Below, in pieces: positions 12,418-22,412 of a stretch of DNA of 40,226 bases. This DNA comes from Heliobacteriaceae bacterium (GTDB lineage: Bacteria; Cyanobacteriota; Vampirovibrionia; Gastranaerophilales; Gastranaerophilaceae). Position 1 is the stretch's first letter, and each line of letters begins with the position of its first letter. The stretch lies in contig JAISCP010000153.1 of assembly GCA_031265495.1 (NCBI GenBank), positions 1-40,226 on the forward strand. Reading direction: 5' to 3'. Both the position numbers and the translations under genes were made by a program. The notes beneath the pieces are model-generated. The model had not been told where the DNA came from, ran no database searches, and worked only from the letters and a program-made list of their open reading frames with translations.

Positions 12418-13152
12418 ATGAAAAAAATACACAAAGGTATAGTAAAAACAATAAAAGAAGCTGCAAAAAACACGGTATATATGAGTTTTGAGCCGGAGAA
12501 CCCTATGGAAATCAAACCCGGTCAGTTTATTTCGATTTTGTGCGGCGGCCTGACTTTGCGAAGACCGTTTAGCGCGGCTGATTTTGACGGGAAGGAAATT
12601 GCAATTCTGTTTAGGAGAAAAGGTAAAGGTACAAATTATCTTTCCGGACTGAAACCCGGCAGCGAAATAGATTTTATCGGCGCTTTAGGGAACGGGTTTG
12701 ACGTCGTGGATAAAAAATCTTTAATAATCGGTGCGGGCATTGGTATTGCACCGGTTTCTTATTTAAAAAAGAAATTAGACAGCGGGATATTAGTCGGGGC
12801 GTTCATGAGCAAAGATGAGGCGCCGCAGGGGATTTCTTTTGATGAAATTATTACAAACGACGGCAGCGCCGGCAAAAAGGGCAGTATTTTAGACCATCTG
12901 GAAAACCTGATTGATAATTATAAACCGGAAATTATTTACGCTTGCGGACCTGCGGTTGTTTTGAGGGCTGTTGGCGAAGCGGCGCAAAGACACGGCGCAG
13001 ACTCGCAGCTTGCAATGGAAAAGGTTATGGCATGCGGGATTGGCGTGTGCAAAGGGTGTGTAATTAAGGTTAAACGCGGCGGAGAAATAAACAATATGAC
13101 GGTTTGCAGTGACGGGCCCGTGTTTCGGGGAAGCGAGGTCTTATGGGAATGA
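12418..13152 (+). CDS. pyrK: Dihydroorotate dehydrogenase electron-transfer subunit PyrK
   Basis: 244 residues, full length. The N-terminal FAD domain carries KPGQFISI and LRRPFS. The NAD-binding part has IIGAGIGIAPV and IYACGPAVVL. The C-terminal [2Fe-2S] cluster is bound by C206, C211, C214 and C230 (MACGIGVCKGC, then VCSDGPVF). PyrK passes electrons from the PyrDB dihydroorotate dehydrogenase to NAD. It is the first gene of the cluster and overlaps pyrD by 10 nt. The start ATG has a weak GGAA site directly after the leader terminator. Confidence 0.96.
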   Translation: MKKIHKGIVKTIKEAAKNTVYMSFEPENPMEIKPGQFISILCGGLTLRRPFSAADFDGKEIAILFRRKGKGTNYLSGLKPGSEIDFIGALGNGFDVVDKKSLIIGAGIGIAPVSYLKKKLDSGILVGAFMSKDEAPQGISFDEIITNDGSAGKKGSILDHLENLIDNYKPEIIYACGPAVVLRAVGEAAQRHGADSQLAMEKVMACGIGVCKGCVIKVKRGGEINNMTVCSDGPVFRGSEVLWE

Positions 13153-14063
13153 TAACCGATTTAAGAGGTTTGACTCTGAAAACGCCGATTATCAGTGCGT
13201 CAGGAACTTACGGCTATAATAACGAGTTTGATGTTTTCTGCGATGTGAAAAACATCGGAGCGGTTGTAACAAAGGCCGTTACGCTTGCCCCGAGAGCCGG
13301 AAACGATTGGCAGCGCATATTTGAGGTTCCCGGAGGGCTTATTAATTCAATAGGGCTTGAGAATGTGGGAATTGAGAAATTCCTTGAGGAAAAGCTTCCG
13401 GTGTTAAAGTCGGAAAATATAGAGTTTATAGTAAACATAGCGGGTTCAACGCTTGACGAATACCTGCAGTTAGCAAGAATTTGCGATAAAAACTCCATAA
13501 AAGCGATTGAACTCAATCTTTCCTGCCCGAATGTAAAATCCGGCTGTTTGGAATTCGGAACTGACGAGGATGCGCTGTATGAGGTTGTATCAGGGGTTAG
13601 ACAGGAATTTTCAGGGTATTTGGCCGCAAAACTCACGCCGAATGTAACTTCAATAGAAAAAATCGCTGCTGCTGCCGAAAAAGCCGGTGCGAATGCGGTT
13701 TCGGCAATTAATACGGTTAAAGCTCTGGGGTTAAAACTGCAATATGTAAACGGGGAATTTAAGAAAGAGTTTGTACATGGCGGGCTTTCGGGGCGGACGG
13801 TTAAGCCTGTCGCGCTCTCATGCGTTAACAGAATATCAAAAGCTGTAAGCATTCCGGTAATCGGAATGGGCGGAATATATTGCCTGGATGATGTTTTGGA
13901 GTTTTTCTCGGTCGGAGCTGAGGCTGTTCAGGTTGGCACGGCGAACTTTACACACCCTGATATTTGCGAAAAACTTGCCAATGATTTGGAAGAATTTATG
14001 CAAAAAAATGGTTTTACACAACTGGATGAATTAAAATGTAAATTACGGGAGGAAGTTATATGA
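13143..14063 (+). CDS. pyrD: Dihydroorotate dehydrogenase PyrD, class 1B
   Basis: 306 residues, an FMN TIM barrel oxidising dihydroorotate to orotate in the cytoplasm. Landmarks are SASGTYGYNNEF, NSIGLENVGIEKF, IELNLSCPNVKSG with the catalytic-base cysteine C128 (class 1 enzymes use Cys), SAINTVKALG, HGGLSGRTVKPVAL and GMGGIYCLDDVLEF. Pairing with PyrK fixes it as the NAD-linked heterotetrameric 1B type, in keeping with an anaerobe. The start overlaps pyrK; the end overlaps pyrE by 4 nt (ATGA). Confidence 0.97.
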   Translation: MGMITDLRGLTLKTPIISASGTYGYNNEFDVFCDVKNIGAVVTKAVTLAPRAGNDWQRIFEVPGGLINSIGLENVGIEKFLEEKLPVLKSENIEFIVNIAGSTLDEYLQLARICDKNSIKAIELNLSCPNVKSGCLEFGTDEDALYEVVSGVRQEFSGYLAAKLTPNVTSIEKIAAAAEKAGANAVSAINTVKALGLKLQYVNGEFKKEFVHGGLSGRTVKPVALSCVNRISKAVSIPVIGMGGIYCLDDVLEFFSVGAEAVQVGTANFTHPDICEKLANDLEEFMQKNGFTQLDELKCKLREEVI

Positions 14064-14638
14064 GCGGAAATGTTTTAGAACTGCTGGAAAAAGCTGAAGG
14101 AGTGTTAAAAGGGCATTTTTGTCTTACTTCCGGTCTGCATTCGGATATTTACTTTCAGTGCGCAAAGCTGTACCAATACCCTGATTTGACTGAAAAAATC
14201 GGGAAAGAGCTTGCGCAAAAGCTTGAAGGTATTGAGTTTGACACGATAGTATCCCCTGCAATCGGCGCTGTTATAATGGGGTATGAAACCGCAAAACAAG
14301 CGGGCAAAAGGAACTTATTCGTTGAAAGAAAAGACGGTAAAATGGAGTTAAGACGCGGTTATTCGCTTGATAAGGGCGAAAAAGTGGTTATTATTGAGGA
14401 CGTAATCACCACTGCAAGAACGATTAACGAAACAATTGAAGCTCTTGCGCCTTTCAGGGCTGAGGTGGCTGCTGTGGGCTGTATTGTTGACCGGACTTGC
14501 GGCAAAACCGGTTTCAATATAAAATCGCTTCTGCAGATTGACCCTGTAACCTATGACCCGTCAGACTGCCCGTTGTGCAGGGAAGGTCTGCCGTTAGTGA
14601 AGCCCGGCAGCAGAGTTGAGGTAAAAGCAAGTGTTTAA
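14060..14638 (+). CDS. pyrE: Orotate phosphoribosyltransferase PyrE
   Basis: 192 residues. The PRPP-binding motif reads VVIIEDVITTARTI near residue 113, acceptable for the phosphoribosyltransferase signature although the usual last part is TTGGS. GHFCLTSGLHSDIYFQCAKL forms the N-terminal substrate region. The C-terminus CPLCREGLPLVKPGSR is the extra tail I associate with Thermus-type OPRTs. It converts orotate and PRPP to OMP. It overlaps pyrD by 4 nt and pyrB by 8 nt, so translation is coupled through the cluster. Confidence 0.94.
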   Translation: MSGNVLELLEKAEGVLKGHFCLTSGLHSDIYFQCAKLYQYPDLTEKIGKELAQKLEGIEFDTIVSPAIGAVIMGYETAKQAGKRNLFVERKDGKMELRRGYSLDKGEKVVIIEDVITTARTINETIEALAPFRAEVAAVGCIVDRTCGKTGFNIKSLLQIDPVTYDPSDCPLCREGLPLVKPGSRVEVKASV

Positions 14639-15533
14639 ACATCTTATTGATATAAAAAACCTTGATAAACAGGATATTTTGAACTTAATACGCAAGGCTG
14701 AACTCTTCAAATCCGGTGAATTGCATTCCTCATCAGCCGGAAAGACCGTTGCAATGATGTTTCTGGAAAACTCAACCCGTACAAAATGTTCGTTTGAACT
14801 GGCGGCTAAGAAATTAGGGCTTCACGTTTTGAATTTTGAAACCTCAAAGTCTTCTTTTTCTAAGGGTGAAAGTTTGCTTGACACTCTGAACAACCTTTAT
14901 TTTATCGGTGTTGAGGCTGTTGTAATCCGCAGCGGTGAAAACGGTCTTCTTGAAAATACGGCTTCACGGCTTAAATACCCGTTAAAGCTTATTAATGCGG
15001 GCGAAGGGAACATGTCGCACCCAACGCAGGCTCTGTTGGATTTTATGACAATGACTGAAAAGCTCGGCGATATTAAGGGGAAAAGAATTGCTATTGCGGG
15101 CGATATTAAGCACAGCAGGGTTGCAAAATCAAATCTGGAGCTGCTTGGCAAGTTTGGCGCAAAGGTTAAGCTTTGCGCGCCCGATTATTTTAAGGATGAA
15201 AGTATTAAAAATGTCACGTGGTACAACAATTTAGCCGGAGCGATTACGGCTGCGGATGTTGTGATGATGCTGAGAGTGCAGCGTGAACGCCACGAACAGA
15301 CGGATTATTCGTTTGAGGATTACGTGCGGGACTTTGGTTTGACGTCTGAGAAACTTGAAAAATATGCGCCGGATGCTGTTCTCATGCATCCCGGCCCGGT
15401 GAACCGCGATGTGGAAATTAGTTCGGAGCTTCTTGACGGCGAAAAAGGGCTTACAATATTGGAACAGGCGCGAAACGGCGCTTATATCCGAATGGCGGCG
15501 CTGGATGAAATTCTTTCGGAGGGAGCAAAATGA
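14631..15533 (+). CDS. pyrB: Aspartate carbamoyltransferase catalytic subunit PyrB
   Basis: 300 residues, starting at GTG 14631 with GAGG about 10 nt upstream. The carbamoyl-phosphate site is STRTK (S48-T51, with K52 where Arg is common). KSSFSKGESLLDTL is the mobile loop containing the active-site Lys. HPTQALLD begins at H130; MMLRVQRER and HPGPVNRDVEI bind aspartate and stabilise the active site. It makes N-carbamoyl-aspartate. No pyrI regulatory subunit is present, so control by CTP of the E. coli type is not expected. It overlaps pyrC by 4 nt. Confidence 0.96.
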   Translation: MFKHLIDIKNLDKQDILNLIRKAELFKSGELHSSSAGKTVAMMFLENSTRTKCSFELAAKKLGLHVLNFETSKSSFSKGESLLDTLNNLYFIGVEAVVIRSGENGLLENTASRLKYPLKLINAGEGNMSHPTQALLDFMTMTEKLGDIKGKRIAIAGDIKHSRVAKSNLELLGKFGAKVKLCAPDYFKDESIKNVTWYNNLAGAITAADVVMMLRVQRERHEQTDYSFEDYVRDFGLTSEKLEKYAPDAVLMHPGPVNRDVEISSELLDGEKGLTILEQARNGAYIRMAALDEILSEGAK

Positions 15534-16606
15534 TAAAAGTACCTGCCTTTGTTGAAATGCACTGCCACTTGCGCGAACCCGGCTTTGAAGAGAAAGAAAC
15601 TATTGAAACCGGCTCCGCTTCGGCGATTGCCGGAGGATATGCAGCGGTTTGCCCTATGGCAAATACAAATCCGGTGAATGACAATCCCGAAACGCTTAAA
15701 TATATTCTCAGCAAGGCAAAAGATATAAATATTTATCCGATTTGCGCAATTACCAAAGGGCTTGCGGGAAAAGAGCTTACGGACATGAAAACATTGAAAG
15801 AGTCCGGCGCCGCCGCGTTTTCCGATGACGGAAGACCGATTGAGGACATGGGGCTTCTGTATGAAGCCATGCAGACGGCAAAAGAGCTTGATATATTGTT
15901 GATTTCGCATGCCGAAGACAGTTCAATTCACGATAAATATAAGTTCTCGGAAGACATTGCAACGGCAAGAGAGCTGGAAGTCCTGCGCAGCGCCGGCGGT
16001 ACACGCTATCATTTTGCGCATGTGTCGACAAAACGGTCAATTGACTTAATCAGACAAGCTAAAAAAGACGGCCTTAACGTCACGTGCGAAACCGCTCCGC
16101 ACTATTTTTCGCTCTCCAAAGAGGATATTATTGACGCAAGATTTAAGGTGAACCCTCCTCTGCGCGGCGCAGAAGATGTTGAGGCTGTTATAGAAGGCTT
16201 GAAAGACGGTACTATTGACGTAATCGCCACAGACCATGCGCCGCATACTCTTGAGGAAAAACAAAAATCATGGGCTGATGCTCCGATGGGAATTGCCGGT
16301 TTTGAGACAGCATTCGGGGCTGCAAATACCTATCTGGTTAAAGCCGGTCACTTAACGCTTGAAGAACTTATCCAAAAAATGTCTTATAATCCAACGAAAA
16401 TTTTAGGGATTTCAAACAAGGGAAATTTTGCACTAATAGACGAAGACTTTGAATGGACGGTTAAAGCCGCAGATTTTAAATCAAAATGCAAGATTTCGCC
16501 GTTTGAAGGAAAAAGGCTTACGGGAAAGGTTATACAGGTAATAACAAAGAAAATACCTCTCTCTGCGCAGAACGCCGGCTTATTGGCACGTCATTGCAGC
16601 GCGTAA
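15530..16606 (+). CDS. pyrC: Dihydroorotase PyrC (class I, lacking the N-terminal beta domain)
   Basis: 358 residues; typical class I dihydroorotases have about 425. The protein starts almost at the metal site (H11-C-H13-LREPG), so the small N-terminal beta-sandwich strand set is missing, as in the DHOase domain of animal CAD. Other landmarks are AFSDDGRPI, HVSTKRSIDLIR, TCETAPHYF and ATDHAPHTLEEK. It cyclises carbamoyl-aspartate to dihydroorotate. The last residues (LLARHCSA and stop) come from a dispersed GTCATTGC...GGCAATGAC repeat that runs into the gene, so the natural end has been replaced or extended. Confidence 0.92.
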   Translation: MIKVPAFVEMHCHLREPGFEEKETIETGSASAIAGGYAAVCPMANTNPVNDNPETLKYILSKAKDINIYPICAITKGLAGKELTDMKTLKESGAAAFSDDGRPIEDMGLLYEAMQTAKELDILLISHAEDSSIHDKYKFSEDIATARELEVLRSAGGTRYHFAHVSTKRSIDLIRQAKKDGLNVTCETAPHYFSLSKEDIIDARFKVNPPLRGAEDVEAVIEGLKDGTIDVIATDHAPHTLEEKQKSWADAPMGIAGFETAFGAANTYLVKAGHLTLEELIQKMSYNPTKILGISNKGNFALIDEDFEWTVKAADFKSKCKISPFEGKRLTGKVIQVITKKIPLSAQNAGLLARHCSA

Positions 16607-16624
16607 GCCCGATGCGGCAATGAC
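16585..16624. repeat. Short GTCATTGC...GCAATGAC repeat overlapping the pyrC end
   Basis: Inverted ends GTCATTGC and GCAATGAC enclose GCGTAAGCCCGATGCG. The same internal string (GCGTAAGCCCGACGCGGCAA) occurs at 18749-18768. The TAA in it is the pyrC stop codon. Confidence 0.6.
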
Positions 16625-16667
16625 AAGGTGTGAAAAGAAAAATTGACTAAAATAAAGGAAAAAATAT

Positions 16668-18518
16668 ATGATTAATCCGAAAATTAAGGAAAAAATAGTT
16701 TTAGCGCTGGATGTTGACGATATAGAGTCTGCAAAAAAGCTCGTAAATGAGCTTAAAGATTATGTAGGAATTTTTAAAGTCGGCCTGCAGTTTTATACGG
16801 CGAACGGCAGCGAACTTTTTGAGTTTATGAAGTCGGTCGGCGCGGATTACTTTCTGGATGTAAAATTCATGGATATTCCAAACACCGTAGCCAAAGCCTC
16901 GCAGAACGTAATAAAAAAAGGCGCGGACTTTTTCAATGTTCATGCGCTCGGCGGCAAAGAAATGATGCAAAAAGCAATGGAAGCAGCGTCCGAAACAGCC
17001 CTTAAGCTTGGCCGGAGCGCGCCGACAGTGCTTGCGGTAACTGTTTTGACGAGCATAAGCAACGAAACCCTCAATGATGAACTTGAAATTGGCCATAATG
17101 TGAATAAATACGCGCTTAAACTGGCGAAACTTGCCAAAGAAAGCGGTTTAACCGGAGTAGTGGCAAGCGTTTTTGAAGCAAGAAAAATAAAAGAAGTCTG
17201 CGGAGCGGATTTTAAGGTTCTCTGTCCGGGCATAAGACCGGAATGGTCGGTAAAAGACGACCAGAAACGTCTTGCAACGCCGAAACTGGCAATTGAAGAA
17301 GGCGCGGATTATCTTGTAATAGGCCGCGCAGTTACGGGCGCGCCTGGCAGACTTGAGGCTATGCGCAGAATTTATGATGAAATTGAAGAGGCCTTAAACA
17401 AAAAACCGTTCAAAATCCACTACGCAAAACCCGCAAGGCTGCTTTTGGACAACGGAACGGAGTTTGAAGGAGAGTCTTTCGGAGCGGGCGGAACTTCTTT
17501 CGGCGAAATTGTATTTAACACTTCTATGGCAGGTTATCAGGAAATTTTGACCGACCCGTCTTACAGTGAACAGGTTGTGGTCATGACTTATCCGGAAATC
17601 GGCAACTACGGAATAAACGACGGTGATTTTGAAAGTTCAAAAGTTCACGCGAACGGATTTATCGTAAAGAGCTGCTGCGAGCGCGAAAGCCATTACCGGA
17701 GCGTTAAAACGCTTGATAAATACTTAAAAGAAAACGGCGTAGTCGGCATAAAAAACGTTGACACAAGGACTATAACCGAAATTATACGCGAAACCGGCGC
17801 TATGAACTGCGTCCTGACAACATCGGAGATTACGGACGAACTCAAAGAGCAGCTGAAAAATTACTCAATGTCCAAAGATGTTGCAATAAAAGCTTCTTCT
17901 AAGAATATACGCAGAATTCCCGGCTCCGGCGTTAAGCTCGGAATAATTGATTTGGGAATTAAAAAAAGCATTGTGGAAAATTTTGAGCGGCTTGGCTGTG
18001 ATATAACGATTTTTCCTGCCAACGTGAGCGCGAAAGAGATTTTAGCGGAAAACTTTGACGCCGCGCTTCTCTCCAACGGTCCCGGAAACCCGCAGGACGC
18101 GGTTTGCGCCATTGAATGCGCCCGAGAGCTTGCCGGAAAACTTCCGCTGTTCGGGATTTGTCTGGGACACCAGATTTTGAGCATAGTTCTCGGAGCAAAG
18201 ACCTACAAGTTGAAATACGGCCACAGAGGCGGAAACCATCCCGTAATCAACCTTGAAACAAATAAAGTTATTTTGACTTCGCAAAATCACGGCTATGCAG
18301 TGGATGAAAATTCGTTTACGCCTGATATGAAAGCGACTTACAAAAACCTTAACGATGGCACAATAGAAGGCTTTCGGTGTGAAAAACCGTATATTGAAGC
18401 GGTGCAGTTTCATCCTGAAGCTGCGCCCGGCCCGATTGACGCGAATGAAATATTCACAAAATGGATAAACGGAATAAGGCAGACAACAAGCAAAGGAGTT
18501 GAAAGGTTGAAAAGTTGA
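16668..18518 (+). CDS. pyrF-carA: Bifunctional OMP decarboxylase / carbamoyl-phosphate synthase small subunit (PyrF-CarA fusion)
   Basis: A single 616-codon frame encodes two complete proteins. Residues 1-244 are type 1 orotidine-5'-phosphate decarboxylase, with catalytic D64-x-K66-x-x-D69 (LDVKFMDIPNTV), VHALGG and VLCPGIRPEW; it makes UMP from OMP. After a linker of about ten residues (KKPFKIHYAK), residues 254-605 are the glutaminase subunit of carbamoyl-phosphate synthase: RLLLDNGTEFEGESFGAGG, NTSMAGYQEILTDPSY, LSNGPGNP, FGICLGHQ with nucleophile C498, GHRGGNHPV, and H582/E584 in QFHPEAAPGP. The fusion links the first and last steps of UMP synthesis. The final residues (about TSKGVERLKS) read into an intergenic repeat. 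A ribosome binding site (AAGGA) precedes the ATG. Confidence 0.95.
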   Translation: MINPKIKEKIVLALDVDDIESAKKLVNELKDYVGIFKVGLQFYTANGSELFEFMKSVGADYFLDVKFMDIPNTVAKASQNVIKKGADFFNVHALGGKEMMQKAMEAASETALKLGRSAPTVLAVTVLTSISNETLNDELEIGHNVNKYALKLAKLAKESGLTGVVASVFEARKIKEVCGADFKVLCPGIRPEWSVKDDQKRLATPKLAIEEGADYLVIGRAVTGAPGRLEAMRRIYDEIEEALNKKPFKIHYAKPARLLLDNGTEFEGESFGAGGTSFGEIVFNTSMAGYQEILTDPSYSEQVVVMTYPEIGNYGINDGDFESSKVHANGFIVKSCCERESHYRSVKTLDKYLKENGVVGIKNVDTRTITEIIRETGAMNCVLTTSEITDELKEQLKNYSMSKDVAIKASSKNIRRIPGSGVKLGIIDLGIKKSIVENFERLGCDITIFPANVSAKEILAENFDAALLSNGPGNPQDAVCAIECARELAGKLPLFGICLGHQILSIVLGAKTYKLKYGHRGGNHPVINLETNKVILTSQNHGYAVDENSFTPDMKATYKNLNDGTIEGFRCEKPYIEAVQFHPEAAPGPIDANEIFTKWINGIRQTTSKGVERLKS

Positions 18519-18560
18519 AGGGTTTAAAAACCGTTAAGCATGTTCAACAAGACAAGCAAA
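18497..18560. repeat. Intergenic repeat unit, partner of 18955-19018
   Basis: GTTGAAAGGTTGAAAAG... through GTTCAACAAGACAAGCAAAG is repeated at 18955-19018 with small changes. The unit overlaps the last codons of the pyrF-carA fusion. Confidence 0.55.
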
Positions 18561-18732
18561 GGAGACAGGTAACAACAAATAAAAGCCGGCAATGGGTAAA
18601 GCTGATAAATAATGAAGTAATTCCCGGCAAAGGCGTCAGAAGGTAGAATTAACTTGAAGCGAACAAAACAAGTAAAAATTGAAAATTTAAACTACCCTTC
18701 CCTTGAGGGGAGTGTCAATTTTTCATTGATAT

Positions 18733-18825
18733 GTCATTGCGAGGAGGGCGTAAGCCCGACGCGGCAATCCAGTAAATTCAATGTTTTTGACTGGATTGCT
18801 TCGTCGCTTTGCTCCTCGCAATGAC
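18733..18825. repeat. Long inverted repeat GTCATTGCGAGG...CGCAATGAC
   Basis: A 93-bp palindromic block: GTCATTGCGAGGAGG at the left end mirrors CTCCTCGCAATGAC at the right, and GGCAATCCAGT mirrors ACTGGATTGC around a short AT loop. A close copy lies at 40135-40222, a partial one at about 11889 and a short relative at 16585. It would form a strong hairpin in RNA. It lies in the fusion-carB gap (645 bp), which holds no gene. Confidence 0.75.
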
Positions 18826-18834
18826 GAAGCAAGC

Positions 18835-19138
18835 AAAGGAGTGACTAAGTGAATAGGTTCATCTAAGAAATATTAAATAAAAAGCTAATAAAACCCTCAT
18901 CCGCCCTACGGGCACCTTCTCCCAGAGGGAGAAGGAAGAGATATAAAAAGCAAAGCGGTTGAAAGGTTGAATGGTTTAAAAATCGTTAAGCGCGTTCAAC
19001 AAAACAAGCAGAGGAGTGACTAAGTGAATAGGTGAATAGGTTCATCTAAAAAATATTAAATAAAAAGCTAATAAAACCCTCACCCGCCCTACGGGCACCC
19101 TCTCCCAGAGGGAGAGGGAAGAGATATAAAAAGCAAAA
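18835..19138. repeat. Direct duplication of a 120-130 bp repeat block before carB
   Basis: Copy A (18835-18954) and copy B (19008-19138) share GGAGTGACTAAGTGAATAGG, TATTAAATAAAAAGCTAATA, then AACCCTCA-CCGCCCTACGGGCACC and CTCCCAGAGGGAGA. Copy B has an extra 8 bp (GTGAATAG). A 50-60 bp spacer between them itself repeats 18497-18560. The block looks like a segmental tandem duplication of several intergenic repeat modules. It contains hairpins (CCGCCCTACGGGC, TCTCCCAGAGGGAGA). Confidence 0.7.
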
Positions 19139-19163
19139 CAAAAAAAACTTGAAAGGACATAAA

Positions 19164-22100
19164 ATGAAAGATAACATAAAAAGAGTTCTGGTAATCGGCT
19201 CCGGGCCGATAGTTATCGGCCAGGCTGCGGAGTTTGATTATGCGGGAGTTCAGGCGTGCCGCGCGCTCAAAGAAGAAGGCGTTGAAGTTGTTCTCGTAAA
19301 CTCCAACCCCGCCACAATTATGACGGACGAAGATATTGCCGATAAAGTTTATATCGAACCTCTGCGGATTGAAGTTCTGGAAAGTATTATCAAAACAGAA
19401 CGCCCTGACGGGATTATAGCATCGCTGGGAGGGCAGACAGGGTTAAATCTTGCGGTTGAACTTTATGAAAAAGGTATTTTGGAAAAATATTCGGTGAAAC
19501 TTCTGGGCACCGGAATTGAAGCTATTAAGAAAGCGGAAGACCGGGAGCTTTTCAAGAATTTGATGAGCGAAATCAACGAGCCTGTACCTGAAAGCATTAT
19601 TGCGTCAAGTCTTGAGCAGGCAAAAGAATTTGCTGCGCAAATCGGCTTTCCGGTAATCATCCGCCCCGCATACACTCTCGGGGGTTCGGGCGGCGGAATT
19701 GCCTCTAATGCACGGGAGCTTGAAGAAATTGTACACTCCGGCCTGCTGAGAAGCCCTATTTCACAAGTGCTTGTCGAGCGCAGTATTGCAGGCTACAAAG
19801 AGATTGAATATGAAGTTATACGCGACGGAAACGATACTTGCATAACTATCTGCAACATGGAAAATATTGACCCGATTGGAATTCACACAGGAGACAGCTT
19901 TGTTGTTGCGCCGTCGCAGACGCTTACAAATAAAGAATTCCAAATGCTGCGGACTTCTTCCATAAAGATTATACGGGCGTTGAAAATCGAAGGCGGATGC
20001 AATGTCCAGTTTGCTCTTGATACTAAAAGCAGCCAGTACTATGTAATTGAGGTTAATCCCCGCGTAAGCCGCTCGTCCGCGCTTGCCTCAAAAGCCACCG
20101 GATATCCGATTGCAAAGGTTACGGCGAAAATCGCTATGGGGTACCATCTTCACGAAATTAAAAATGCTATTACGGAAAAAACCGCCGCGGCTTTTGAACC
20201 GGCTATTGATTATGTTGTAACTAAAATTCCCAAATGGCCGTTTGATAAATTCGCACACGGAGACAGAGTTTTGGGTACAAAAATGAAAGCAACCGGCGAG
20301 GTTATGGCAATCGGCAGAACATTTGAAAGCTCATTTAAAAAAGCCATAACTGCAATTGAAAGCAAAAATACCGGACTTTACAGAAAAAGATACGCTGATT
20401 TTTCCAATGAAGAATTAAAAGCAATTCTTGCAGTGCAGGACGACAGACGGATTTTCAGGCTTGCCGAAGCTCTTAATCGCGGTATAAGTATTGAAGAAAT
20501 TAATAAAATTACCAAAATTGACATGTGGTTTATTGCTAAAATAAAAAATCTTTGTGATTTTGAAAACAGGCTTAAAAAAGAACCCCTCACCGCCCGGTTG
20601 TATCTGGAGGCTAAAGAAAAAGGATTTTTGGATACAGAAATCGCTGTGACCTCAAGAAAAACTCTTAAAGAAGTTGAAAAACTCCGCGATAACAACGGTA
20701 TCAGTGCCGCGTTCCGTGTGGTTGATACGTGTGCGGGAGAGTTTCAGGCGTACACGCCGTATTATTATTCGGTTTACAATGAAGCTGACGAGTATAACGA
20801 AGAAACTGAACAAAAAGCAAACCCTTCAACTAAAATTTTGGTACTCGGCTCCGGCCCCATACGTATCGGACAGGGGATTGAGTTTGATTACTGCTGCGTT
20901 CACGCGGCTTGGGCTATCAGGAAAAACGGCTGTAAATCGCTGATTGTGAATTCCAACCCCGAAACGCTCTCCACTGATTTTGACGTTGCCGATAAACTGT
21001 TTTTTGAGCCGATGAATATTGAAAACGTTATGAATATTATTGAAAGGGAAAAGCCTGCCGGCGTAATGGTTCAATTCGGCGGGCAGACGGCGATAAATCT
21101 TGCTCCACAGCTTGCAAAGCGCGGGGTTCCGATACTGGGAACATCGCTGGAGTCCATTAATACAGCGGAAGACAGAAAGCTTTTTGAAGCATTGCTGCAG
21201 GAACTGCAAATACCTCAGCCTAAAGGCGTTGCCGTAAAAAAATCCGAAGAGGCGCTTCAGGCGGCGAAAAAACTGGGATTTCCGCTGCTGGTAAGACCTT
21301 CTTACGTAATCGGCGGACGCGGCATGCAGGTCGTTTATAACGAAAGCGAGCTTCTGACATATTTCAAATCAGCTTTACAGTTTTCGGACGAACACCCTGT
21401 ACTTATCGACCAGTATATTGAAGGCGTAGAACTTGAGCTTGATGCGGTAAGCGATGGCGAGGACGTTTTAATTCCGGGAATAACCGAACACATAGAGCGC
21501 GCCGGAGTGCATTCCGGCGACAGTATGGCGATTTATCCGACCCAGAATGTTAAAAAAGAAGTCCTGAACAGCCTTGTTGATTATGCCCGAAAGATTGCGA
21601 AAAAGCTTCAAATAAAGGGGCTTATGAACATACAGTTCGTGCTGAAAGATAATGTGGCGTATATCATTGAGGTTAATCCCCGCGCATCGCGTACAGTGCC
21701 GATTATGAGCAAAGTTACGAATATTCCGATGACTGATATTGCCGTAAACGCTGCGCTGGGAAAATCCATTAAAGAACAGGGGTACAAACCCGGTTTACAG
21801 AAAACAACCGACCTTGTATGCGTTAAAGTGCCGGTGTTTTCGTTCCAGAAGCTTAACCGCATAGACCCTGCGCTTGCGCCGGAAATGAAGTCAACCGGAG
21901 AAGTGCTTGGCGTTGATTATGTTTACGAAAAAGCGCTTGTTAAGGGGTTTCTTGCAGCGGGGTACAATTTCCCCGAAACGCGCGGGGATGTAATGCTGTC
22001 GCTCAACGACCACACAAAGCCCGAAGGTGTTGAAATCGCCAGCACGCTTAACGCTCTGGGTTACAGAATTGTTGCCACGACCGGAACACATAAATTCCTT

Positions 22101-22412
22101 AAACAGCACGGCATTGAGTCCAGAGAGATTGAAAATTTTGACATGGAAAAAATGCAGGAACACATGAAAAAGCGGCAGCTTGCATTTATCATTAATACTC
22201 CTGCAACTAACTCCAATACCGTACGTGTCGGCTCTGAACACAGGGGATTTTTGATAAGAACAATTGCGGAATTGTATTCTACGCCTTGTTTTACGTCAAC
22301 GGATACAGCGGCGGCTTACCTGAAAGCGCTCAGTTTTTACATTAAAAACCCGAAATTGGAATACAAAAGTATTGACAAGTACCGCAGGGAAATCTTTTGC
22401 AATATATGGTGA
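19164..22412 (+). CDS. carB: Carbamoyl-phosphate synthase large subunit CarB
   Basis: About 1082 residues from ATG 19164, chosen over the TTG 15 nt upstream because AAAGGA lies 6 nt before it. It has the two homologous halves of the family: VLVIGSGPIVIGQAAEFDYA at the start and ILVLGSGPIRIGQGIEFDYC near residue 560, each followed by an ATP-grasp domain (VIIRPAYTLGGSGGGIA and LLVRPSYVIGGRGMQVVY; EVNPRVSRSSALASKATGYP and EVNPRASRTVPIMSKVTNIP). The C-terminal MGS-like domain (about 945-1082) includes IVATTGTHKFLKQHGI, the usual allosteric region. It uses ammonia from CarA to make carbamoyl phosphate. It is separated from the fusion gene by a 645-bp repeat-filled gap. Confidence 0.98.
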   Translation: MKDNIKRVLVIGSGPIVIGQAAEFDYAGVQACRALKEEGVEVVLVNSNPATIMTDEDIADKVYIEPLRIEVLESIIKTERPDGIIASLGGQTGLNLAVELYEKGILEKYSVKLLGTGIEAIKKAEDRELFKNLMSEINEPVPESIIASSLEQAKEFAAQIGFPVIIRPAYTLGGSGGGIASNARELEEIVHSGLLRSPISQVLVERSIAGYKEIEYEVIRDGNDTCITICNMENIDPIGIHTGDSFVVAPSQTLTNKEFQMLRTSSIKIIRALKIEGGCNVQFALDTKSSQYYVIEVNPRVSRSSALASKATGYPIAKVTAKIAMGYHLHEIKNAITEKTAAAFEPAIDYVVTKIPKWPFDKFAHGDRVLGTKMKATGEVMAIGRTFESSFKKAITAIESKNTGLYRKRYADFSNEELKAILAVQDDRRIFRLAEALNRGISIEEINKITKIDMWFIAKIKNLCDFENRLKKEPLTARLYLEAKEKGFLDTEIAVTSRKTLKEVEKLRDNNGISAAFRVVDTCAGEFQAYTPYYYSVYNEADEYNEETEQKANPSTKILVLGSGPIRIGQGIEFDYCCVHAAWAIRKNGCKSLIVNSNPETLSTDFDVADKLFFEPMNIENVMNIIEREKPAGVMVQFGGQTAINLAPQLAKRGVPILGTSLESINTAEDRKLFEALLQELQIPQPKGVAVKKSEEALQAAKKLGFPLLVRPSYVIGGRGMQVVYNESELLTYFKSALQFSDEHPVLIDQYIEGVELELDAVSDGEDVLIPGITEHIERAGVHSGDSMAIYPTQNVKKEVLNSLVDYARKIAKKLQIKGLMNIQFVLKDNVAYIIEVNPRASRTVPIMSKVTNIPMTDIAVNAALGKSIKEQGYKPGLQKTTDLVCVKVPVFSFQKLNRIDPALAPEMKSTGEVLGVDYVYEKALVKGFLAAGYNFPETRGDVMLSLNDHTKPEGVEIASTLNALGYRIVATTGTHKFLKQHGIESREIENFDMEKMQEHMKKRQLAFIINTPATNSNTVRVGSEHRGFLIRTIAELYSTPCFTSTDTAAAYLKALSFYIKNPKLEYKSIDKYRREIFCNIW

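Follow-up and report, generated by a model that had tools for sequence, protein, structure and literature searches.

Pyrimidine enzyme fusions are textbook cases, and the best-known ones link neighbouring steps of the pathway. UMP synthase, in which OMP decarboxylase (OMPDC, PyrF) is joined to orotate phosphoribosyltransferase (OPRT, PyrE), the enzyme of the step just before it, is found as OPRT-OMPDC and OMPDC-OPRT, and has its own NCBIfam model in bacteria (NF004034). These fusions, in either order, arose through several independent events (PMC2705460). CAD comprises CPSase, ATCase and DHOase, that is the first three steps, without PyrF (PMC8508918).

We describe here another arrangement, PyrF-CarA, which joins the last enzyme of pyrimidine synthesis to a subunit of the first, in a gut bacterium related to cyanobacteria (family Gastranaerophilaceae). 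The window, by which we mean the whole stretch of DNA analysed, is 40,226 nucleotides long (contig JAISCP010000153.1). As in UMP synthase, OMP decarboxylase is joined to an enzyme of the same pathway, but here this is CarA, which belongs to the first step, and PyrE is encoded by a separate ORF. Eukaryotic CAD and the CPS1-type CarA-CarB proteins likewise carry CarA-type domains within a longer chain; in the window, however, the CarA domains are attached to PyrF, whereas CarB, PyrB and PyrC each have an ORF of their own. No description of PyrF-CarA was found among open-licence PMC papers, in agreement with an earlier note on this DNA, which named PyrE-PyrF and CAD as the known fusions and knew of no PyrF-CarA; the architecture may be present but unremarked in protein databases.

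The fusion is specified by a single open frame of 616 codons (16668-18518, + strand) with zero internal stops, in which a complete type 1 OMP decarboxylase is followed by a linker of approximately ten residues and a complete CarA (Table 1). Pfam analysis of the 616-amino acid product revealed OMPdecase at residues 9-235 (194 bits; PF00215 aligned over positions 2-221 of 221, a full-length match), CPSase_sm_chain at 258-383 (178 bits) and GATase at 426-598 (164 bits). The NCBIfam models for PyrF (NF001273, 255.5 bits against a cut-off of 193) and CarA (TIGR01368, 433 bits against 307, covering model positions 2-360 of 361) were both exceeded. The PyrF catalytic residues D64, K66 and D69 (motif DxKxxDIPNT) and the glutaminase residues C498, H582 and E584 are present, and are invariant across 16 fused homologues. 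Alignment with the small subunit of E. coli places C498 at the nucleophile (GICLGHQ) and H582 and E584 in the HPE motif (HPEASPGP); in E. coli CarA, C269 and H353 are essential (PMC6245113). The two halves thus satisfy the same family models and catalytic motifs as ordinary bacterial PyrF and CarA, which are separate proteins rather than being joined by a linker of some ten residues. The best fold matches were E. coli CarA for the CarA half and bacterial PyrF structures for the PyrF half (35-40% identity to solved chains), using a structure model of medium confidence (mean pLDDT 72.5, pTM 0.43; low at residues 246-253). The uninterrupted frame, the complete decarboxylase and the complete glutaminase subunit, all claimed in the earlier note together with their catalytic residues, were therefore borne out. 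The 2.05-Mb draft genome contains one OMPdecase and one CarA, both inside the fusion, so that, if the pathway works, both functions must come from it.

Table 1. Features of the pyrimidine gene cluster in the window and of the CarA(N)-CarB loci of genome G020 (window coordinates unless a locus is named)
Feature	Position	Strand	Evidence or remark
pyrK, dihydroorotate dehydrogenase electron transfer subunit	12418..13152	+	PF10418; NCBIfam matches below cut-off
pyrD, dihydroorotate dehydrogenase	13143..14063	+	NF005574, 347 bits
pyrE, orotate phosphoribosyltransferase	14060..14638	+	TIGR01367, 187 bits
pyrB, aspartate carbamoyltransferase	14631..15533	+	NF002032, 330 bits
pyrC, dihydroorotase, 358 aa, N-terminally short	15530..16606	+	TIGR00857, 326 bits; sequence
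PyrF domain, residues 1-243, D64/K66/D69	16668..17396	+	PF00215 and NF001273 above cut-off; fold matches; motif invariant
Linker, residues 244-253, NKKPFKIHYA	17397..17426	+	Codon display; unfused relatives; low model confidence at 246-253
CarA N-terminal CPSase_sm domain and hinge, residues 254-425	17427..17942	+	PF00988, 178 bits; aligned to E. coli CarA 3-134
CarA GATase domain and tail, residues 426-616, C498/H582/E584	17943..18515	+	PF00117, 164 bits; aligned to E. coli CarA 197-376
Spacer between pyrF-carA and carB, 630 bp, mostly repeats	18519..19148	.	
carB, separate large subunit, partner of the CarA half	19149..22412	+	TIGR01369, 1496 bits
G020 CarA(N)-CarB	L005:2486-3054	+	Linkers differ between contigs
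G020 CarA(N)-CarB	L094:3-3095	+	Linkers differ between contigs

The fused gene is part of a same-strand run, pyrK-pyrD-pyrE-pyrB-pyrC-[pyrF-carA]-carB, and the partner that CarA requires is thus encoded in the genome. The carB ORF is listed from a TTG codon; an in-frame ATG at 19164 is its likely start. Short repeats are found in both spacers flanking pyrF-carA (16606-16668 and 18519-19148), and their core (TGTCATTGCGAGGAG) has 220 matches in the genome at no more than one mismatch, as compared to 0 for the reversed control. Within the pyr genes nothing was recognized by Rfam, which reported one tRNA only over the whole window.

PyrF-CarA was found in one frame in 27 of the 286 genomes of the order, the window's included, by ORF analysis of the fetched loci. 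The earlier note had proposed looking for other proteins with OMPdecase and CPSase_sm_chain domains; the 26 further genomes all belong to the same family, and comprise 23 members of genus g21, G138 (g26), G198 (g31) and G232 (the window's genus). Two g21 genomes beyond the 27 (G449 and G482) are fused as well. Searches of the class (194 genomes) and the phylum (292 genomes), in which a fused protein would have been among the highest-ranking matches, showed no fused frame outside the family. In most other genera pyrF and carA are separate genes that abut or overlap, in many cases by a single base; a few have longer gaps, and in g24 and some g18 genomes the unfused genes lie in frame as TAA|ATG, an arrangement in which one mutation would complete the fusion. 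Within a single family the genes thus occur apart, overlapping, in one frame but divided by a stop, fused, and joined in a triple fusion.

A number of candidates were rejected. Full-length matches in g24, four g18 genomes and G243 resemble the fusion, but TAA or TAG stands between pyrF and carA and the genes are therefore unfused. Reading of the DNA showed no fusion at the long open frames of CarA (G348, G287), of a second PyrF (G124) or of CarB (G279, G240, G210), and L006 (Rhodospirillales) proved to be PyrF only. The g21 genomes carry an additional standalone PyrF (about 49% identical to that of the window in the two fetched), and because of this second copy the fused PyrF might be redundant there.

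A tree of 50 rows was constructed by a quick method from PyrF and CarA together with the N-terminal 500 residues of CarB. The window and G232 fall together (support 100) inside a group with the unfused g44, g32, g24, g16 and g3 (97), while g26, g31 and g21 form a separate fused clade (99). Constraining all fused rows to one clade cost 16 log-likelihood units (p-AU 0.0165), for a grouping that was chosen after the tree was seen and a tree in which the branch ordering the deepest forks is weak. The linkers are also unlike: ALNKKPFKIHYAKPARLLL in the window, TIGGEFTPCYTRPARLLL in G232 and ALLTQNKSYAxSKGKLIL in g21. Because there are two fused clades with unlike linkers, the fusion probably arose twice, as UMP synthase did on multiple occasions (PMC2705460); the post hoc grouping and the weak deep branch make two origins likely rather than proven, and there may instead have been a single gain followed by later splitting.

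How such a protein originated can be proposed from the gene order. In our view it is very probable that loss of a stop between neighbouring operon genes gave a bifunctional PyrF-CarA, the halves of which would work as usual. With pyrF and carA adjacent in one pyrimidine operon, pyrF would have lost its stop codon and some ten linker codons would have been gained, resulting in one reading frame. The N-terminal half would then be a normal OMP decarboxylase making UMP, and the C-terminal half an ordinary glutaminase subunit, which would pair with the separately encoded CarB and supply it with ammonia. This supposes that both halves are active, that the linker remains uncleaved, that binding of CarA to CarB leaves PyrF able to dimerise, and that the genes are coupled and transcribed together. 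The origin could have been near-neutral, the ratio of first-step to last-step enzyme thereafter being fixed at 1:1; channelling would not be needed. Fixed stoichiometry is the likeliest main gain, and the fusion may have been retained for that reason or since it is harmless. The earlier note's suggestion that the fusion could coordinate stoichiometry or regulation is plausible.

A different possibility, which we regard as unlikely, is that the fusion has acquired a new function: PyrF anchored to the CPSase would increase UMP in the vicinity of CarB's allosteric domain, or would organise a complex of pyrimidine enzymes, with local feedback or channelling as the outcome. The CarB of E. coli synthesizes carbamoyl phosphate from ammonia and bears the effector sites; UMP, which PyrF produces, is an allosteric inhibitor of this CPSase and binds the C-terminal domain of CarB (PMC6245113). 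Since UMP inhibits E. coli CarB, it is conceivable that proximity links the making of UMP to the control of CPSase. The window's CarB retains the MGS allosteric domain (which, in isolation, matched no solved chain in the fold comparison), and a fusion that probably arose twice persists across a whole genus. Against this, UMP diffuses freely, so that feedback is possible without fusion, close relatives are unfused, and a conserved contact or regulatory element was not found. The family offers a natural series for testing the fusion, a regulatory or stoichiometric gain being set against near-neutral compaction of the operon.

The junction bears on whether one protein is made or two. In unfused relatives PyrF ends at about residue 243 and CarA begins at about residue 254 (fusion numbering), which gives a linker of about ten residues, the length put forward in the earlier note. 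Were the chain cleaved, or CarA also started internally, two ordinary proteins would result. The in-frame start codon closest to the window's junction, a TTG, lies within the first strand of CarA, and an ATG occurs just before the linker in two g21-type genomes; however, in-frame ATG and GTG are both absent from the codon display of the window's linker, and a start codon in the linker is rare among g21 species. In g21, moreover, conservation of the linker is at the protein level. Its LTQNKSY part varies mostly at silent positions and has a pN/pS of 0.036, against a median of 0.12 among equally long windows (19% of which are lower), as expected if the linker is read as protein; this fits translation and purifying selection on that part. 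Separate products accordingly seem very unlikely to us. Least credible of all is an error in which the consensus lost a stop and a start between two ordinary genes, the sequencing deletion against which the earlier note had warned: although the window belongs to a 153-contig draft genome, a further 26 genomes in the sample of the order share the one-frame arrangement, among them a separate draft from the window's genus whose linker differs, and the junction exceeds that of relatives with touching genes by some ten codons, so that a single dropped base would not create the fused frame. The occurrence in independent genomes, the differing linker types and the selection on one linker support PyrF-CarA as a genuine fusion, both halves of which are apparently intact.

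In G232, a sister species within the window's genus, the process appears to have gone further. A single frame of 1481 amino acids (L026:3768-8213, - strand) encodes PyrF-CarA(N)-CarB, in which CarB is complete and the GATase domain is absent. This genome (92% complete) has just two class I GATase matches, both of them in CTP synthase-like proteins, and hence no other CarA-type glutaminase was found in it. In G020, which belongs to another family, two contigs show CarA(N) running directly into CarB, again with GATase missing (Table 1). Because the GATase domain is missing, the chains of G232 and G020 should depend on free ammonia. We consider it rather likely that an enzyme uniting the first and last steps in a single chain is being assembled in the window's family, with PyrF-CarA formed twice and then the 1481-residue chain of G232, which lacks a glutaminase and would necessarily be fed by ammonia. 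The loss of the glutaminase in G232 bears on how carbamoyl-phosphate synthases turn ammonia-dependent.

Several other features of these genomes deserve mention. The second CTP synthase-like protein of G232 (L079:1477-3108, - strand) has Ser in place of the nucleophile Cys (GISLGMQ), pointing to the use of ammonia by this protein also. The pyrF gene of G020 contains an in-frame TAG (L005:1938-1940) where relatives have Tyr, which could reflect a pseudogene, an error or recoding. Two g7 genomes encode CarB-like proteins of 893-895 amino acids (L098:3357-6044, + strand; L099:2062-4743, - strand) with no match to the MGS allosteric domain, and no CarA in these genomes matched the query used. With the queries used, many genomes of g2, g4, g5, g11, g14 and other genera of the family have a standalone PyrF without a CarA or CarB match, and g6, most g7 and most g15 genomes match neither PyrF nor CarA/CarB, a distribution which suggests that de novo pyrimidine synthesis has been lost widely in the family. 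Lastly, the dihydroorotases of the window and of G232 (L026:8210-9166) begin just before the HxH motif and are without approximately 50 N-terminal residues that the dihydroorotases of several other genera possess.
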